A DNA stretch of 64,000 bases from Deltaproteobacteria bacterium. GTDB taxonomy: Bacteria > Desulfobacterota > Syntrophobacteria > Syntrophobacterales > Syntrophobacteraceae. Shown here in pieces: positions 3,245-12,389 of the stretch; the first letter of the stretch is position 1, and each line of letters begins with the position of its first letter. The position numbers and the translations under genes were made by a program. Location of the stretch: the NCBI GenBank assembly GCA_021777755.1, contig JAJYDE010000017.1, positions 1-64,000 of the forward strand, written 5' to 3'. The notes under the pieces are model-generated. The model saw only the letters and a program-made list of their open reading frames with translations, was not told the origin of the DNA and searched no databases.

Positions 3245-4963
3245 ATGGAAAAAAGAAATTTCAAAATCGAGACGACCGCGCAGGCATACCTTCAGTTGCT
3301 GAGCGAGCGGGGAATCGAGTATCTTTTCGCCAATGCGGGCACCGATTTCGCCCCGCTTATCGACGCCTTCGCCTATTATGCCGCGATGGGCAAATCCGTG
3401 GTCAAGCCGGTTGCGGTCCCCCACGAAAACGTGGCCGTGGCCATGGCTCACGGTTATTACCTTGCCACCGGAAAACCGCAGGCGGTGATGGTCCACGTCA
3501 ATGTCGGGACCGCCAACGCGTTAAACGGGATCATCAACGCGGCCCGTGACCGGATTCCCATCCTTTTTACCGCCGGACGCACGCCGGTCTTCGAGCGTGG
3601 CCCCCACGGAGCCCGCGACCTTTGCATCCATTGGGCGCAGGAGTCCTTCGACCAGGCCGGCATGGTGCGAGAGTACGTGAAATGGGACTACGAGTTGCGC
3701 GATTTCAGGCAACTGGAGACGGTGGTGGACCGGGCACTGGAGATCGCGATGAGCGAGCCCAGGGGGCCCGTCTATCTGACGCTGCCACGAGAAGTGCTGG
3801 CCCAAAGCCACGATGAGTTCACCATTTCGGCCGCTCCCCGAAGACACATCGGGGGGGCACTGCATCCCGGCCCCGGGGACATCGAGGCCGCGGCCGGGAT
3901 GCTTGCCGCCTCGAAAGCACCCTTGATAATCACTTCTTCGCTTGGCGCGGGGGCCGTCGAGCCCCTTGCCCGCCTTGCCGAAAGTTTTGCGATTCCCGCT
4001 GTGGCGTTTAATCAGCGCACCCTCTGCTTTCCCACAACCAGCCCCATGCACGCCGGATTTTCCCCGACACCCCTTTTGGAGGAGGCCGACACGGTTCTCG
4101 TCGTGGAAAGCGATGTGCCCTGGTATCCGAGCCTGACGAGCCCTTCCGAGGACTGCAAGGTCATTCAACTGGGGATCGACCCGCTCTACTCCAGGTATCC
4201 CGTTCGCAGCTTTCCGCGCGACCTGGCCATTCGCTCCGATGCCGCCACGGCCATCGAGATGCTTCATCAAGCTCTCGCCAGGCGCTGTGCCAACATGGGG
4301 CAGGAGATTGCACAAAGATTTGCCCGAATCGAAACCTTGCACAATACCCTGCGAGCCGGGTGGCGAGGCGAGATGGAAAAGGCTTGCGAAAGCTCCCCCC
4401 TTGATCCGGTCTGGGTCTCGCACTGCATAGGTGCGATAAAGGACGGTGAAACGGTCATTGTAAACGAGTACGATCTGGTGCCGGGCCAAGTGGAATTCGA
4501 TCGGCCAGGCGAGTATTTTGGCGGTAGCACGGCGGGCGGGTTGGGCTGGGGGCTCGGCGCGGCCCTTGGCTTAAAGCTTGCCTTGCCGCACAAAACGGTG
4601 GTGGCCGCGGTCGGGGACGGCAGCTACATGTTCGGAAACCCCACGCCTTTTCACTTCGTATCCCGGGCGCTGGGGCTGCCCACCCTTACCGTTATTTTCA
4701 ACAATCACTGCTGGAACGCGGTGCGCCGCGCCAACAGGCTCCTCTATCCCGAAGGCTGGGCAAAAAAGGCGGGCAATTATCCGCTAACCGACCTGTCTCC
4801 TTCTCCGGATTTCGAGCGGATCGTTTCAGCAAGCGACGGCTACGGTGAGCGGGTCGATAAGCCTTCCGAGGTTTTGCCGGCCCTCGGGCGGGCTTTGCAC
4901 GCGGTGCGGGTGGAAAAGCGCCAGGCCGTGCTGAATATGGTCCTGAAAGCCCCGGCGGATTGA
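3245..4963 (+). CDS. Thiamine diphosphate-dependent enzyme (acetolactate synthase/decarboxylase superfamily)
   Basis: 572 residues from the ATG at 3245, chosen over an upstream ATG at 3209 because AAGGAAA sits just upstream of it. It has the three-domain layout of the POX/ALS/benzoylformate decarboxylase group: an N-terminal PYR domain with the catalytic Glu in 'VPHENVAVAMAHG', a central domain, and a C-terminal PP domain with the Mg-ThDP motif 'GDGSYMFG...NN' near the end. Substrate cannot be read from sequence, since branch members include sulfopyruvate and oxalyl-CoA decarboxylases, carboligases and ALS-like proteins. No regulatory-subunit gene is adjacent, so it is unlikely to be the biosynthetic acetolactate synthase. 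It is followed 41 bp later by a serpin gene. Confidence 0.85.
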   Translation: MEKRNFKIETTAQAYLQLLSERGIEYLFANAGTDFAPLIDAFAYYAAMGKSVVKPVAVPHENVAVAMAHGYYLATGKPQAVMVHVNVGTANALNGIINAARDRIPILFTAGRTPVFERGPHGARDLCIHWAQESFDQAGMVREYVKWDYELRDFRQLETVVDRALEIAMSEPRGPVYLTLPREVLAQSHDEFTISAAPRRHIGGALHPGPGDIEAAAGMLAASKAPLIITSSLGAGAVEPLARLAESFAIPAVAFNQRTLCFPTTSPMHAGFSPTPLLEEADTVLVVESDVPWYPSLTSPSEDCKVIQLGIDPLYSRYPVRSFPRDLAIRSDAATAIEMLHQALARRCANMGQEIAQRFARIETLHNTLRAGWRGEMEKACESSPLDPVWVSHCIGAIKDGETVIVNEYDLVPGQVEFDRPGEYFGGSTAGGLGWGLGAALGLKLALPHKTVVAAVGDGSYMFGNPTPFHFVSRALGLPTLTVIFNNHCWNAVRRANRLLYPEGWAKKAGNYPLTDLSPSPDFERIVSASDGYGERVDKPSEVLPALGRALHAVRVEKRQAVLNMVLKAPAD

Positions 4964-5004
4964 AGACAAGCGAAAAAACCCGAGAAGCCAACGGAGGCGG
5001 GAAA

Positions 5005-6213
5005 ATGAAAAGCGCATTTGCAACTCTGGCGATTACCGTGCTTGCGGCCGTATTGGTCGCGCCCGCGGCCCCGGCCCTTGAGCCCCAGTCTACTCCTTCA
5101 GTTTCTTCGGGCCAAGCCCTTGCGCGGGGCAACAACGCCTTCGCGGCCCGGCTCTACGGTGAACTCGCCCAAAGCAAAGGCAATCTTTTCTTTTCCCCCT
5201 ACAGCGTTTCAACAGCCCTCGGAATGGTCTACACCGGGGCAAGAGGGGATACGGCAACCCAAATCCGCAAGGCGCTTGACTTTGAACTCGATCAGGCCCG
5301 CTTGAACAAAGCCTTCAAGAAGATGAACCAAGATTTGGCTTCTTTTGCCCGCAAGGACAATTTCAAGTTGAATATCGCCGACGGACTTGCCCTGACCGGA
5401 GGCAAAGTGAACAAGGAGTTCGAAGCAGCGCTCGAAGAGGACTACGATGCCCGGATTTTCTCCGGCGGAGCCGGGCGGATAAACGCCTGGGTCCGGCGGA
5501 AAACGGAAGGCAGGATCGATAGGATCATCGACCGGCTCAACCCCGATTCGGCTTGTGTCATCCTCAATGCGATTTACTTCAAGGGGCTGTGGATGTGGCC
5601 CTTTTCAAAAAAGCGCACCCGAAATGAGCCCTTCAACGTCTCTTCGACCAGGCGGGTTACGGCTCCAATGATGTATCGGCGTGACAAGCTGAAAGTGCTG
5701 GATGGAAAAGATTTCCAGGCCGTTTCCATTCCCTACGCGGGGGGCGAACTCTCCATGGCCGTTTTTCTTCCGCGAAAGCCGGACGGGCTTTCCGGCCTGG
5801 AAAAGCGGCTGAACGCGGCAAAGCTCAGCGGATGGCTCGAAAAACTCGATGGCGGGCCGGTCCGGGAAATAGATCTGTACCTGCCGCGATTTACGATGCG
5901 GACGAGCTACGATCTCAAGCCCTCCTTCGTGAAGATGGGCATGACCAAACCCTTCGAGCAAGGCGCCGATTTTTCGGGCATAAAAACGCCTGCGGGCGCT
6001 CTTCGCATAGGCCGGATCAACCACAAAGGGTTCCTGGATGTTAACGAGAAGGGAACGGAAGCCGCCGCGGCCACGGCTATCGAGATGCCGGCGCTCGCCA
6101 TGCGCAGGTATCCCGTTTTTCGGGCCGATCACCCGTTTTTATTTCTCATAAGGGACAACCGAAACTCCCTGATTCTTTTCATGGGCAGGCAAGCCGATCC
6201 GACCAGCAAGTGA
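5005..6213 (+). CDS. Secreted serpin (serine protease inhibitor)
   Basis: 402 residues, starting at ATG 5005, which has GGAGG 8 bases upstream. The N-terminal signal peptide is MKSAFATLAITVLAAVLVAP with a likely AxA-type cleavage site near 'APALE'. The serpin fold follows, with 'GNLFFSPYSVSTALGMVYTGARG' near the N-terminus. The reactive-centre hinge EKGTEAAAAT begins at E348, a match to the consensus of inhibitory serpins, so it should be able to trap proteases. Counting from the hinge with the usual 17-residue spacing places P1 at L364 and P1' at A365, suggesting a chymotrypsin-, elastase- or subtilisin-like target. The strand after the loop (FRADHPFLFLIRDN...ILFMGR) is intact. Bacterial serpins are sporadic. 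Confidence 0.93.
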   Translation: MKSAFATLAITVLAAVLVAPAAPALEPQSTPSVSSGQALARGNNAFAARLYGELAQSKGNLFFSPYSVSTALGMVYTGARGDTATQIRKALDFELDQARLNKAFKKMNQDLASFARKDNFKLNIADGLALTGGKVNKEFEAALEEDYDARIFSGGAGRINAWVRRKTEGRIDRIIDRLNPDSACVILNAIYFKGLWMWPFSKKRTRNEPFNVSSTRRVTAPMMYRRDKLKVLDGKDFQAVSIPYAGGELSMAVFLPRKPDGLSGLEKRLNAAKLSGWLEKLDGGPVREIDLYLPRFTMRTSYDLKPSFVKMGMTKPFEQGADFSGIKTPAGALRIGRINHKGFLDVNEKGTEAAAATAIEMPALAMRRYPVFRADHPFLFLIRDNRNSLILFMGRQADPTSK

Positions 6214-7110: not shown

Positions 7111-7695
7111 ATGAGAGCCAGCCCTTTCAAGATATCATTCATTGCATTTTGTGCCGCTCTGAATGTCGGAGTTTCCTCCCTCGTTCATCTGTTGAAATTA
7201 CCGATCTATCTCGACTCGGTCGGCACCATCCTGGCCTCCGTTTTGATCGGCCCATTGGAAGGAGCCGCCGCGGGCGTGCTGGCATTGCTCATAATCAGCC
7301 TCACCGTCGTGCCAACAGCGATTGCCTATTGCGCTACGGCCATCGCAATAGCCTTTTGCAGCTCATTTTTTACCAGATTCAAGTACCTGGCCACGATGCG
7401 GGCTTCCATCCTGGGCGGGGTTTTGCTGGGAGTCATCGCCGCGCTGCTCTCGGTTCCCGTGACCGTCTATGTCTTTCATGGGGCTTCCTTGGTCGGGGCG
7501 GACGTTGTGACGGCTTTTTTCCACCGGGTTACCGATCGCTCACTGCTCGAAAGCGTATTCTTGGGAGGCTTGTCCACGGACTCCATCGATAAAGTGGCGA
7601 CATCACTGTTATGCTTTTTCCTGATCAAGGCCATGCCCGTAAGGCTCACAAGCCACTTCGCCGGCGCCAGGATATTGTCGGTAAAACCGGAGTAG
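7111..7695 (+). CDS. ECF transporter substrate-binding membrane subunit (S component)
   Basis: 194 residues, about six hydrophobic segments and no signal peptide. The segment 'LLKLPIYLDSVGTILASVLIGPLEGAAAGVLALLI' is characteristic of ECF S components, where the helix-1/loop region binds the vitamin-like ligand and small-residue (AxxxA-like) motifs contact the T subunit. The RBS AAGGA lies 8 bases from the ATG. The T subunit follows after 5 bp and the ATPases after that, so this is a dedicated group I-type importer. The substrate cannot be assigned from sequence; likely classes are vitamins, precursors or nucleobase-like molecules. Confidence 0.82.
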   Translation: MRASPFKISFIAFCAALNVGVSSLVHLLKLPIYLDSVGTILASVLIGPLEGAAAGVLALLIISLTVVPTAIAYCATAIAIAFCSSFFTRFKYLATMRASILGGVLLGVIAALLSVPVTVYVFHGASLVGADVVTAFFHRVTDRSLLESVFLGGLSTDSIDKVATSLLCFFLIKAMPVRLTSHFAGARILSVKPE

Positions 7696-7700
7696 AACTC

Positions 7701-8402
7701 ATGCATCCGGCCGCTCGAATCATGCTGGCTTTCTGTTTTGTTTTGGCCGCCTTGAATGCCAAGGCGCCGGTAAATTACAGCATTGCGGGTCTGGGAATTC
7801 TCTATTCGTTTTCCATCAAGAGCCGAAGCGGCTTTAATCCAGCCAAAATTTTCGCCAAGATGCTCCTCTTCGGGATAGTGATACTTTTTCTCATGCACGG
7901 GCTGAATTTTCACACCCGCGCACTCAGCACGAAGGGCCTGCGGGTTGTCGCGGACGGGGCGTTGCGGTTTGCCTCCGTATTCGCCGCTACCTTGTGGCTC
8001 GTCAAAGGCACGACCAAAGAAGAGCTCTATGCTCTAATGCTCTCTGTCAGGATGCCGATAGCGGCCATCCTGGTTGTTTTTCGCGCAATCTGGTTTCTTC
8101 CCCACATTTTCAAAAGAGTCCGGGATGTACTCCTGGCTCATCGGCTAAGGGGGCTCGATTCGTCCAATTTTTTCAGACGCTGCCTGGCGCTTGCCCCGGC
8201 GCTCCATGCGATTTTTGCCTCAATGGTCCTGGAAATCTGTGAAAGCTCGGTCGTGATGGTTTCAAAAGGCATCTGGATAGGAGGACCCAAATCCTCTTCT
8301 CTCCAATTACGGTGGTCATGCAGGGATTGGATAGCCGCGGGAGCGGCCGGCCTGGTTATCGTCATTTTGTTATTCAAGGGAACTCATCTTGCTCGAGGCT
8401 GA
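7701..8402 (+). CDS. ecfT: ECF transporter T component (EcfT/CbiQ family)
   Basis: 233 residues beginning at ATG 7701, immediately after the S-component stop. The N-terminal half has several transmembrane helices. The central segment 'MPIAAILVVFRAIWFLPHIFKRVRDVLLAHRLRGLDSS' matches the coupling-helix region of EcfT, with the Arg-Gly motif here written HRLRG. The last helix (AAGAAGLVIVILLFKG) ends in a 14-bp overlap with the ATPase gene. It transmits ATP-driven movement from the ATPases to the S subunit. A dedicated T gene next to S and A genes marks a group I ECF system. Confidence 0.87.
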   Translation: MHPAARIMLAFCFVLAALNAKAPVNYSIAGLGILYSFSIKSRSGFNPAKIFAKMLLFGIVILFLMHGLNFHTRALSTKGLRVVADGALRFASVFAATLWLVKGTTKEELYALMLSVRMPIAAILVVFRAIWFLPHIFKRVRDVLLAHRLRGLDSSNFFRRCLALAPALHAIFASMVLEICESSVVMVSKGIWIGGPKSSSLQLRWSCRDWIAAGAAGLVIVILLFKGTHLARG

Positions 8403-10695
8403 TAATCTCTGCCTGTCTTTTGCTTCCGCCGAGGGAGAAATCGCTTCGTTTCGCGGAGTTTCCTTCCGTGCCAAAGGGGGCGAACTCATCGGGGTGACGG
8501 GCCAGTCCGGCAGTGGGAAAACCGGTCTGCTGATGGCCCTGGGGGGGTACCTGCCTTATTGGGCTCCGGCCTGCGAACTGAGAGGGTCCCTGTCCTTTTC
8601 CGGGCGGCCCGTAAGGCAGGGCGAGCCCGGAAACGACACCGCGATCGTTATCGAAAATCCATACAACCAAAACACCGGCTTCAAATCGGGCGTTTTCGAA
8701 GAGCTGTTGGTTCCGCTTGAAATGAGGGGAATCGCGCCCGAAATCATGAGGGCCTCGGCGCGTTGCCTGGCGAATCGATTCGGGTTGTCGCATATTCGCG
8801 GATCAAAGCTCGAAAGCCTTTCGGGAGGCGAACTGCAGCGGCTCCACATTGCCTCGGCCTTGATTGCACGGCCAAACCTGCTGCTGTTGGATCAGGTATT
8901 GGCCGAACTGGACCAGGGTTTTCAGCAAAGGCTTTTCACGATACTCAGGAGCTATGCCGGGGAGCGAAAGGCGGTTATTTTGCTTTCATTCAATCCGGGC
9001 GAGACCGATTTGGACAGCTTCGACACGGTGGTGAATCTTTCCCGGGGGGTGAGTGAAACAGTTTCAAAACCTGTTTGCAAAATCCCGGCTTATTTGGACA
9101 AAACAGCTCCGACTCCCGCAGGGCAAAAACCCGCCATAAGGCTCCGCGACCTCTCTTTCCGGTATTCACCGCGGCGTCCCTGGTTATTTGAAAGTCTCAA
9201 TCTCGAAGTTTCGCAGGGGCGGGGCTGCCTCATCCTGGGGCCCAACGGAAGTGGCAAATCAACCCTTGGCAAGCTGATTCTGGGTATTCTTAAACCCGAT
9301 GGGGGAAGCATCGAAGTCTCGGGACGGGATTTTGCGCGCCAAAGAAAGCCTCGGGCCGGTAGCGCCGTTAACTGCGCGTTTCAGAATCCCGACCTCTATT
9401 TTTGCAAACGCAGTGTAAAAGAAGAGCTTGAATTCGGTACCGATAAGGAGTTGGCGTACAAATTGGCCAATCTTACCGGCCTGTCGGACCATTTGGATAA
9501 AAATCCCTACGACCTGCCAAGGGGACTGCGAAAGCGGCTCTCCTTTGCGATCGCGGGAAGCTCCAGGCCGGAGGTGCTTTATTTGGACGAACCCTCCCAG
9601 TACCAGGACGCGACCGGAGTGGAAGCTCTTATCGAGGCGATGAGGTTTTTACTCGACCAGAAGACGGCCTTGCTGTGCTGCAGCCATGATCGCAGAATCG
9701 TTGACGAATTTTCGGACTTTCCCCGGCTCGTGCTGGGTGGCGAGTCCCGCGCCACGAAGGTTTCGCATGGGGTACAGCCACAGGAGGGCCGCCCCGCCGT
9801 TCAGCCCCTGGGGCTTTTCGGCGGTAAAACGGATGTCGGTGACGCCCGGGCCTGGTTTCAGAATACCTGGCGCGAGGCGATCGAGGGTTGGATCGATATC
9901 GGCAGGCAACGTTCCAGGCACGATGAGGATATCCTTCAAATTTTGATTGAAAAAATCCGAGGGGATTTGTCCATCGATCAGGATTGCCGTATCCTGGATT
10001 TGGGCTGCGGCGACGGCATTTGGTTGATGCTTCTTGGAAAATGGTTGGATGAAAACGGCCTGACAAAGGCCCGGCTTTTGGGAATCGATGTGCAGCAAGC
10101 ACTCATAGATCATGCTCGATGGCGATCTATTGGTCGGGCAAATACCCACTTCGAGGCCGCGGACCTGGCCGAGGGGGAACTGATTGGCGCGCTTTGCGGA
10201 AAAACTCTGGGCGGCAAGGCCACCCTTGCAACCTGCGCCTATGTTCTCCACGACGAACCGGAGCTTACGCCCATGCTGAGGACCATCTCCGACAATGTCG
10301 AAAAGAACGGACTCCTGGTCTGCATCCTGGCGCACCCGGAGTGGGCCAGTGCACTGGCATCCAAAGGGTTTGTCAAAATCGTTCAAAGGGCGGGACAAAA
10401 TGGAAGCGGCCACTGGGGCCGTTCGACCCCGGACTGGCGCTGGCTCGGCCTTTATCCGCTAATGGAGGTTCAAGGGCGCACGGTCTATTTGCCCCACGCG
10501 TTCAGGATACTCGACGATTATGAAAAAGCGATTGCAGCCGCTGGCTTCAGTATCTTATCCGTTTCACCCCTTCTCGCGGACGGGGGAAAGGCGAGCGACC
10601 ACCCGGTTGATGTCACGTGTGTCGCGGCTGCCGAACAGAACTTTATCGCCCATGATAGCCCGCCCTCGGTTCTCATTATCGCCAGGAAATTGTAA
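8389..10695 (+). CDS. Fused ECF ATPase pair with C-terminal SAM methyltransferase
   Basis: 768 residues. A TTG start at 8389, 8 bases after AAGGG and overlapping the T gene, implies translational coupling. Domain 1 (1-225) is an ABC ATPase: Walker A GQSGSGKT 38-45 and signature LSGGELQ 144-150, but Walker B ends LLLLDQ with Gln at 169 and the H-switch position reads SFN (200-202). Domain 2 (248-450) is a second ABC ATPase: Walker A GPNGSGKST 284-292, Q332, Walker B LYLDEP with E401 and H433, but its signature is DLPRGLRKR. Residues about 485-768 form a class I methyltransferase: motif I ILDLGCGDG 535-543 and acidic GIDV 565-568. The tandem ATPases should power the S-T pair. Methyltransferase fusion to an ECF ATPase is not an arrangement I know, and its substrate is unknown. 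Confidence 0.88.
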   Translation: MLEADNLCLSFASAEGEIASFRGVSFRAKGGELIGVTGQSGSGKTGLLMALGGYLPYWAPACELRGSLSFSGRPVRQGEPGNDTAIVIENPYNQNTGFKSGVFEELLVPLEMRGIAPEIMRASARCLANRFGLSHIRGSKLESLSGGELQRLHIASALIARPNLLLLDQVLAELDQGFQQRLFTILRSYAGERKAVILLSFNPGETDLDSFDTVVNLSRGVSETVSKPVCKIPAYLDKTAPTPAGQKPAIRLRDLSFRYSPRRPWLFESLNLEVSQGRGCLILGPNGSGKSTLGKLILGILKPDGGSIEVSGRDFARQRKPRAGSAVNCAFQNPDLYFCKRSVKEELEFGTDKELAYKLANLTGLSDHLDKNPYDLPRGLRKRLSFAIAGSSRPEVLYLDEPSQYQDATGVEALIEAMRFLLDQKTALLCCSHDRRIVDEFSDFPRLVLGGESRATKVSHGVQPQEGRPAVQPLGLFGGKTDVGDARAWFQNTWREAIEGWIDIGRQRSRHDEDILQILIEKIRGDLSIDQDCRILDLGCGDGIWLMLLGKWLDENGLTKARLLGIDVQQALIDHARWRSIGRANTHFEAADLAEGELIGALCGKTLGGKATLATCAYVLHDEPELTPMLRTISDNVEKNGLLVCILAHPEWASALASKGFVKIVQRAGQNGSGHWGRSTPDWRWLGLYPLMEVQGRTVYLPHAFRILDDYEKAIAAAGFSILSVSPLLADGGKASDHPVDVTCVAAAEQNFIAHDSPPSVLIIARKL

Positions 10696-11591: not shown

Positions 11592-12389
11592 TCACCCGGG
11601 CCGGGGTTCGTCTTCCACGATGGCCAAGGGCCGGCACCAGGCCGCGCTTGCATTTTTTATCTTCACGGGAAAACAGCAAACCGCAAATCCGGTCGATCCG
11701 CCCGCGGAAGATAGCTTCGCCATCTTCTCCACGTGGCAGCAGCCGATGTCGATGCCCGCAAAATGTGCTCCCCGGATGACCCCGGGGTCCGCGGTCTTTC
11801 CAAATTCCCGGGCAAGAAAGGGTAGCGGCCTGTCCGGGCTCCAGCCATCGATCCCCACCATCTTGACCCCTTTTTCAGTCAGATGGAGCGTGCTTTCACC
11901 GGTCATGCCCGCTCCCTTGACCAGGTACTCCGGCCGCCCCCAAAAGGCGTCGGCGCCGGTTTGCATCAGTACGATATCCAAAGGCTTTATTTCATAACGG
12001 ATGCGGTCCAACTCCGCTTCGAGATCTTCTGTCGTGATACCTTCACCTTAGGCCTCATGGCGGAAATCGAGAATGACGCCTTGGCCAAAACACCACTCGA
12101 GGGGTATGTTGTCCACTGTGAGCGAGGGGGCCCCCCTATCCCTGGTGGGGTGATAGTGATAGTGGGCATCCAGATGCGTACCGCTGTGGGTTGTGAGGCT
12201 AAGGAGTTCCAAGGCCCACCCGAGCCCGCCGGGCAGCTGCTCTGAAGTGAGGCCGGGGAAGAATTCCTTCATCTGTTCGGCCCCCGCCGCATGATCCGCG
12301 TGCTCGATCCGGGGAATCATCATGGGGGGATCACTCGCAATGTCGGCTTCAATGCTGATGCTCAGATCGACGAAACGTCCGCGGCCCAC
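11592..12389 (-). pseudogene. Cyclase family (PF04199-like) hydrolase interrupted by an in-frame TAA
   Basis: From a GTG start at 12389 (GGAG upstream) the minus strand encodes a kynurenine formamidase-like metal hydrolase. The metal motif 'HSGTHLDAHYHYHP' is present. The frame stops at TAA (12050-12048) after '...ILDFRHEA', then continues unchanged in the same frame with 'GEGITTEDLEAELDRI...DIVLMQTGADAFWG' to 11592, which is the expected C-terminal half. One codon has become a stop and nothing else is visibly damaged. TAA is neither a selenocysteine nor a pyrrolysine codon, so this is a recent nonsense mutation, a sequencing error, or two separate polypeptides. It lies 50 bp downstream of a DUF169 gene on the same strand. 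Confidence 0.8.

Follow-up and report, generated by a model that had tools for sequence, protein, structure and literature searches.

The locus described here raises the question of why the two ATPase domains of an ECF importer should be joined in one polypeptide to a methyltransferase, and whether the molecule that is taken up is also the molecule that is methylated. ECF importers take up vitamins and other scarce compounds, and many S-component families are without known cargo. An attached enzyme would offer a direct handle on this problem, as the acceptor of the methyltransferase would be a candidate substrate of the S component and might hint at the cargo of the CD3073 family in general. 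An earlier note on the window (the whole stretch of 64,000 nucleotides that was analysed) had proposed that the S, T and ATPase genes form one overlapping module, that the ATPase chain ends in a class I methyltransferase, and that the cargo may be methylated on arrival or transport gated by SAM. The features on which the following discussion depends are:

7111..7695, + strand: S component, 194 aa, CD3073-family ECF substrate-binding membrane protein, below curated cut-off (NCBIfam NF045596)
7701..8402, + strand: T component (EcfT/CbiQ-like), 233 aa, probable start ATG 7701 (Pfam CbiQ)
8376..8381, + strand: AAGGGA, likely ribosome-binding site of the fusion gene, within the 3' end of the T gene (sequence)
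8389..10695, + strand: fusion gene EcfA-EcfA'-methyltransferase, 768 aa, TTG start (Pfam and homologues in four genomes)
8389..9063, + strand: NBD1, EcfA-like, residues 1-225 (Pfam, alignment, motifs)
9121..9723, + strand: NBD2, EcfA'-like, residues 245-445 (Pfam, alignment, motifs)
9724..9843, + strand: linker, residues 446-485, poorly conserved (dN/dS, identity)
9844..10695, + strand: class I SAM-dependent methyltransferase (MT) domain, residues 486-768, SAM motifs all present (Pfam, dN/dS)

Architecture of the cassette

The S component matches the NCBIfam model of the CD3073-family ECF S component (NF045596) with an E value of 1.6e-26 and 93 bits, short of the curated cut-off of 180 for an equivalog. 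It is 71-75% identical in three genus members and about 30% identical to plasmid-borne ECF S components, and no relative was found among PDB sequences. The T component scores above the Pfam CbiQ cut-off (28.1 bits, E 1.9e-6), is 60-69% identical in three relatives and retains the first of its Arg-Gly elements (LRG), the second being SKG. An S-family membrane protein, an adjoining EcfT and two ECF-type ATPases clustered with both place the cassette among the dedicated (group I) ECF importers, in the CD3073 S-component family, and its ECF part is otherwise ordinary. No riboswitch was found in the window at Rfam gathering thresholds.

The T frame as listed starts at 7611, but the conserved MHPA start of three relatives corresponds to ATG 7701, and it is most likely that T begins there. 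The S and T genes would thus lie 5 nt apart, and only the second of the two overlaps that had been claimed, that between the T and ATPase genes, is retained, at 14 nt. The fusion gene begins, still within the terminal part of T, at a conserved TTG (8389) that AAGGGA precedes by a few bases, and the same arrangement is seen in two relatives (G045 and G044).

The fusion frame (8389-10695, + strand) is open throughout its 768 aa and contains two ABC_tran stretches (Pfam, E 5.2e-41) as well as methyltransferase families, confirming that ABC-ABC-methyltransferase is encoded as one chain. TIGR04520 and cbiO models were the top matches of the ATPase domains, though below their cut-offs. NBD1 has a Walker A motif (38-45), an LSGGE signature (144-148) and a Walker B motif LLLLDQ (164-169) in which Q169 replaces the catalytic Glu, and the switch His is absent (LLSFNP, 198-203). 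NBD2 has Walker A (284-291), Walker B LYLDE (397-401) and His433, together with a degenerate signature, LPRGL (376-380). These motifs predict two composite ATP sites, one canonical, built from the NBD2 Walker motifs and the NBD1 LSGGE signature, and one degenerate. Among the subunits tested, the highest NBD1 score was with the Haladaptatus A subunit; for NBD2 the best-scoring partners were the A' subunits of Enterococcus and Haladaptatus. Since the signature is degenerate in the A' subunits of the S-component relatives too, and the Haladaptatus A subunit likewise lacks the catalytic Glu (LQQ), the asymmetry of the sites probably predates the fusion to MT. In a group II ECF module an engineered Glu-to-Gln exchange in both Walker B motifs traps ATP (PMC10368641); one such Gln occurs naturally in NBD1 of the fusion.

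The C-terminal domain is, to judge by its Rossmann SAM motifs, a class I SAM-dependent methyltransferase, and in the reading favoured below it is one of the small-molecule type. Pfam Methyltransf_23, _12 and _31 exceed their gathering thresholds over residues ~529-723, and Methyltransf_23/31/12/25 are matched in all four homologues. ILDLGCGDG (535-543) and GIDV (565-568) lie exactly where the earlier note had placed them, and are joined by EAAD (589-592) and TCAYVLHDE (615-623). In the presumed acceptor half, W683-P690, L701-P702, R706 and Y711 are invariant in all four proteins. Family and PDB profile searches for a named MT family or an acceptor gave generic class I matches only. The dN/dS ratios, which are rough as third positions are near saturation, are about 0.12-0.24 for the NBDs, 0.27-0.35 for MT and 0.45-0.7 for the linker of ~40 residues, which is 27-44% identical among the homologues. 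By these ratios MT, while evolving faster than the NBDs, is a maintained domain under purifying selection, and the linker is a loose tether. The only start codon in the linker is a GTG (9730) with no Shine-Dalgarno sequence and at a residue that is not conserved; no conserved internal start for separate translation of MT was found in the window protein or its homologues. AlphaFold2 models of the whole fusion and of the MT domain, built with the only four homologues, had pLDDT values of 38-39, too low to place MT relative to the membrane.

Distribution and neighbourhood of the fusion

The concern that no other genome might show the fusion was not borne out. The MT domain is present in four of the 55 class genomes, all four belonging to the genus of the window (4 of its 11 members), and each time lies inside an open frame of 770-786 codons. 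The fusion proteins come from different species and align end to end with 58-65% identity, and S and T are directly upstream in every carrier, the cassette S-T-(A-A'-MT) being one contiguous cluster that is always fused. The three relatives are separate MAG records (JARLHP010000068.1, Syntrophobacteraceae; JAJYTC010000100.1; JAJXYD010000033.1). S and MT are jointly absent from the seven other genus members, neither was found elsewhere in the family, and within the family S was never seen without the fusion. There is also no stand-alone copy of MT in the 55 class genomes, which suggests that MT is dedicated to the transporter.

Searches further afield gave little. The MT profile found no relative beyond the genus in 247 sampled phylum genomes (E<=1e-12) and none among viral contigs, and its one match among plasmids was weak and partial, to an ordinary stand-alone methyltransferase of a haloarchaeal plasmid. 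The search for this domain order next to EcfT and an S component, which had been recommended, succeeded in three further genus members and found none elsewhere in the class and phylum genomes or plasmids. A contig scan of 84,980 species likewise returned the three genus members only; as its queries were two short peptide patterns, it could miss fusions elsewhere that have diverged further. As far as can be searched, the fusion is restricted to one genus, so that it represents a rare variant and not a new class of wide occurrence.

This distribution is consistent with the cassette having been gained or lost as a single unit. A VTT/DedA gene is found near the cassette in all four carriers. In another genus member (G048; locus L045, G048:C35, 8796-9482) the same VTT gene is accompanied by a ~30-residue cyclase remnant and no ECF cassette, and it looks as though this site either never had the cassette or lost it along with most of the cyclase. 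The putative cyclase of the window itself (PF04199, arylformamidase-like; 11592-12389, - strand) has one in-frame TAA, at codon 114; an uninterrupted copy adjoins the cassette in G045 and there is a full-length match in G047. The window also contains a serpin gene (4960-6213, E 9e-105), in an anaerobic bacterium, that adjoins a TPP enzyme gene, and the order TPP-serpin-VTT is kept in G044 and G046.

Cargo and role of the methyltransferase

The reading that we favour, with a probability of about 0.5, is that of a dedicated ECF importer whose fused MT methylates the released cargo. The S component would capture a scarce micronutrient and topple towards the cytosol, the one canonical site would bind and hydrolyse ATP to reset the module, and MT, tethered beneath the membrane by the flexible linker, would methylate the released substrate with SAM. 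Methylation could then commit the substrate to a pathway and/or prevent its escape (metabolic trapping). Toppling of the S component and ATP-driven reset are the import mechanism of ECF transporters (PMC10368641), and for BtuM/BtuR, a vitamin transporter and an intracellular enzyme with neighbouring genes, such trapping has been proposed (PMC6072759). The direction of transport would, by family membership, be inward, and the imported molecule would be the methyl acceptor.

The operons of S-component relatives, which on plasmids are dedicated ECF operons, are informative in this respect. In Enterococcus raffinosus (L032) the order is S-T-A-A'-nucleoside hydrolase, the hydrolase following the ATPases directly with a 4-nt overlap; in Haladaptatus (L031) it is T-AA'(fused)-nucleoside hydrolase-S, with the hydrolase between the fused ATPases and S; and in Lacticaseibacillus (L028) a nucleoside hydrolase gene lies just before S. 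As the salvage enzyme gene of Enterococcus occupies the place where MT is fused here, the best-supported reading is that MT would be the first enzyme to act on the imported compound, at the cytosolic mouth. That MT processes the cargo is also suggested by a fusion that is intact in four separately assembled genomes, by S and T being always adjacent, and by the constraint on MT. Of the earlier proposal, then, the importer architecture is conserved and stands; methylation of the cargo, which we infer, fits the fusion, the constrained MT and the nucleoside hydrolase genes that adjoin related ECF systems.

Our best guess is that the cargo is nucleoside- or base-like, a hint that comes only from relatives of about 30% identity. 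Against it, the S component belongs only distantly to the CD3073 family, and other S-component relatives, in Salmonella and Paracoccus, have a PCC-domain gene instead (PCC gene-S-T-A-A'). No match to the nucleoside hydrolase family (PF01156) was found in any of the 11 genus genomes. The cassette accordingly does not qualify as a hydrolase-linked ECF uptake system, and another enzyme would have to perform the intracellular step; the absence can equally be read against a nucleoside cargo. Queuosine is salvaged by the ECF components QueT/QrtT with the nucleoside hydrolase QueK (PMC11130926), and was considered as a cargo and rejected, there being no direct match to support it and no such hydrolase in the genus.

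Some further S-component records may be mentioned. In G243 (L021, 6210-7668) a CD3073-family S gene without adjoining T or ATPase genes overlaps a gene of the SBP_bac_3 solute-binding family, and its product may be a receptor and not a transporter. In the Salmonella record (L029, 4550-7602; NZ_LN868944.1) a complete ECF S-T-A-A' operon follows the PCC-domain gene, with epd and tkt on either side. The S gene is present in an E. coli record (H27) as well; E. coli has been described as being without ECF modules (PMC6072759).

Other explanations of the fusion have to be weighed against methylation of the cargo. Every carrier genome is a draft assembly, and the earlier note had raised the possibility of two genes joined by a frame error; an artefact of sequencing or assembly, or a read-through fusion in decay, is nevertheless rejected as having a negligible chance, as the same open fusion recurs in three other separately assembled genus genomes from different species at 58-65% identity, the dN/dS of MT is about 0.3 and even the divergent linker stays in frame. 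A regulatory role is a more serious alternative, in which the MT fold would mainly sense SAM, or the SAM/SAH ratio, and open or close the ATPase dimer, in line with the SAM gating that the earlier note had offered. Accessory C-terminal domains regulate other ABC importers (MetN, MalK, ModC and OpuA), MT sits after NBD2 at what is generally the site of such domains, and its SAM motifs are conserved. However, the presumed acceptor half is also invariant, beyond the needs of a pure sensor, and the variable linker speaks against tight allosteric coupling, so that we regard this role as unlikely.

It is also conceivable that the target of MT is some other molecule of the cell with no relation to the cargo, the fusion merely setting its expression or membrane location. 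That MT matches no family with a named acceptor, and that it evolves faster than the NBDs, would agree with this, but every carrier has strictly kept the fusion, S and MT are jointly absent from the remaining genus members and no separate MT copy was found in the class genomes, all of which makes it improbable. True vectorial coupling, with methyl transfer to the transporter-bound substrate as one event in the manner of a group translocation, would make sense of a motor and a modifying enzyme that are physically tethered, yet the length and variability of the linker suggest a loose tether, and we think it very unlikely. The broader notion of primary-active import in which the cargo is methylated during or right after translocation, a SAM-dependent group translocation in one polypeptide, is doubtful. 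If uptake and methylation were coupled, ATP and SAM would together drive a machine for uptake plus modification, for which the literature searched offers no precedent; open-access searches returned nothing relevant on a fusion of an ECF or ABC ATPase with a methyltransferase, which does not in itself prove absence.

Comparison with known systems

The cassette most resembles the CD3073-related group I ECF systems of Enterococcus raffinosus, Haladaptatus and Salmonella/Paracoccus, in which S, T and two ATPases are likewise adjacent, and among the subunits tested NBD1 matches A subunits best and NBD2 A' subunits. The ATPases of these relatives, however, are not joined to an enzyme, their accompanying gene encodes a nucleoside hydrolase or a PCC protein rather than a methyltransferase, and the similarity is limited to about 30% identity in S and hardly extends to T. 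Two NBDs in one chain are found also in the fused double ATPases of ECF modules, as in Haladaptatus (L031); the YkoD and MtsB types are of this kind. Those proteins are without a methyltransferase, whereas here the linker and MT replace the usual C-terminal extension after NBD2.

In Wzt O-antigen exporters the NBD protein has a C-terminal carbohydrate-binding module (PMC11231755), and the fusion would share with them an NBD polypeptide whose C-terminal domain handles the transported molecule. Wzt differs in being part of an exporter, in having a binding module rather than an enzyme, and in belonging to a different ABC family. A link between uptake and intracellular chemical modification, as proposed here, has parallels in BtuM with BtuR (PMC6072759) and in PTS group translocation, but those systems employ separate proteins or phosphorylation, while in the present case methylation by a covalently fused enzyme is proposed.
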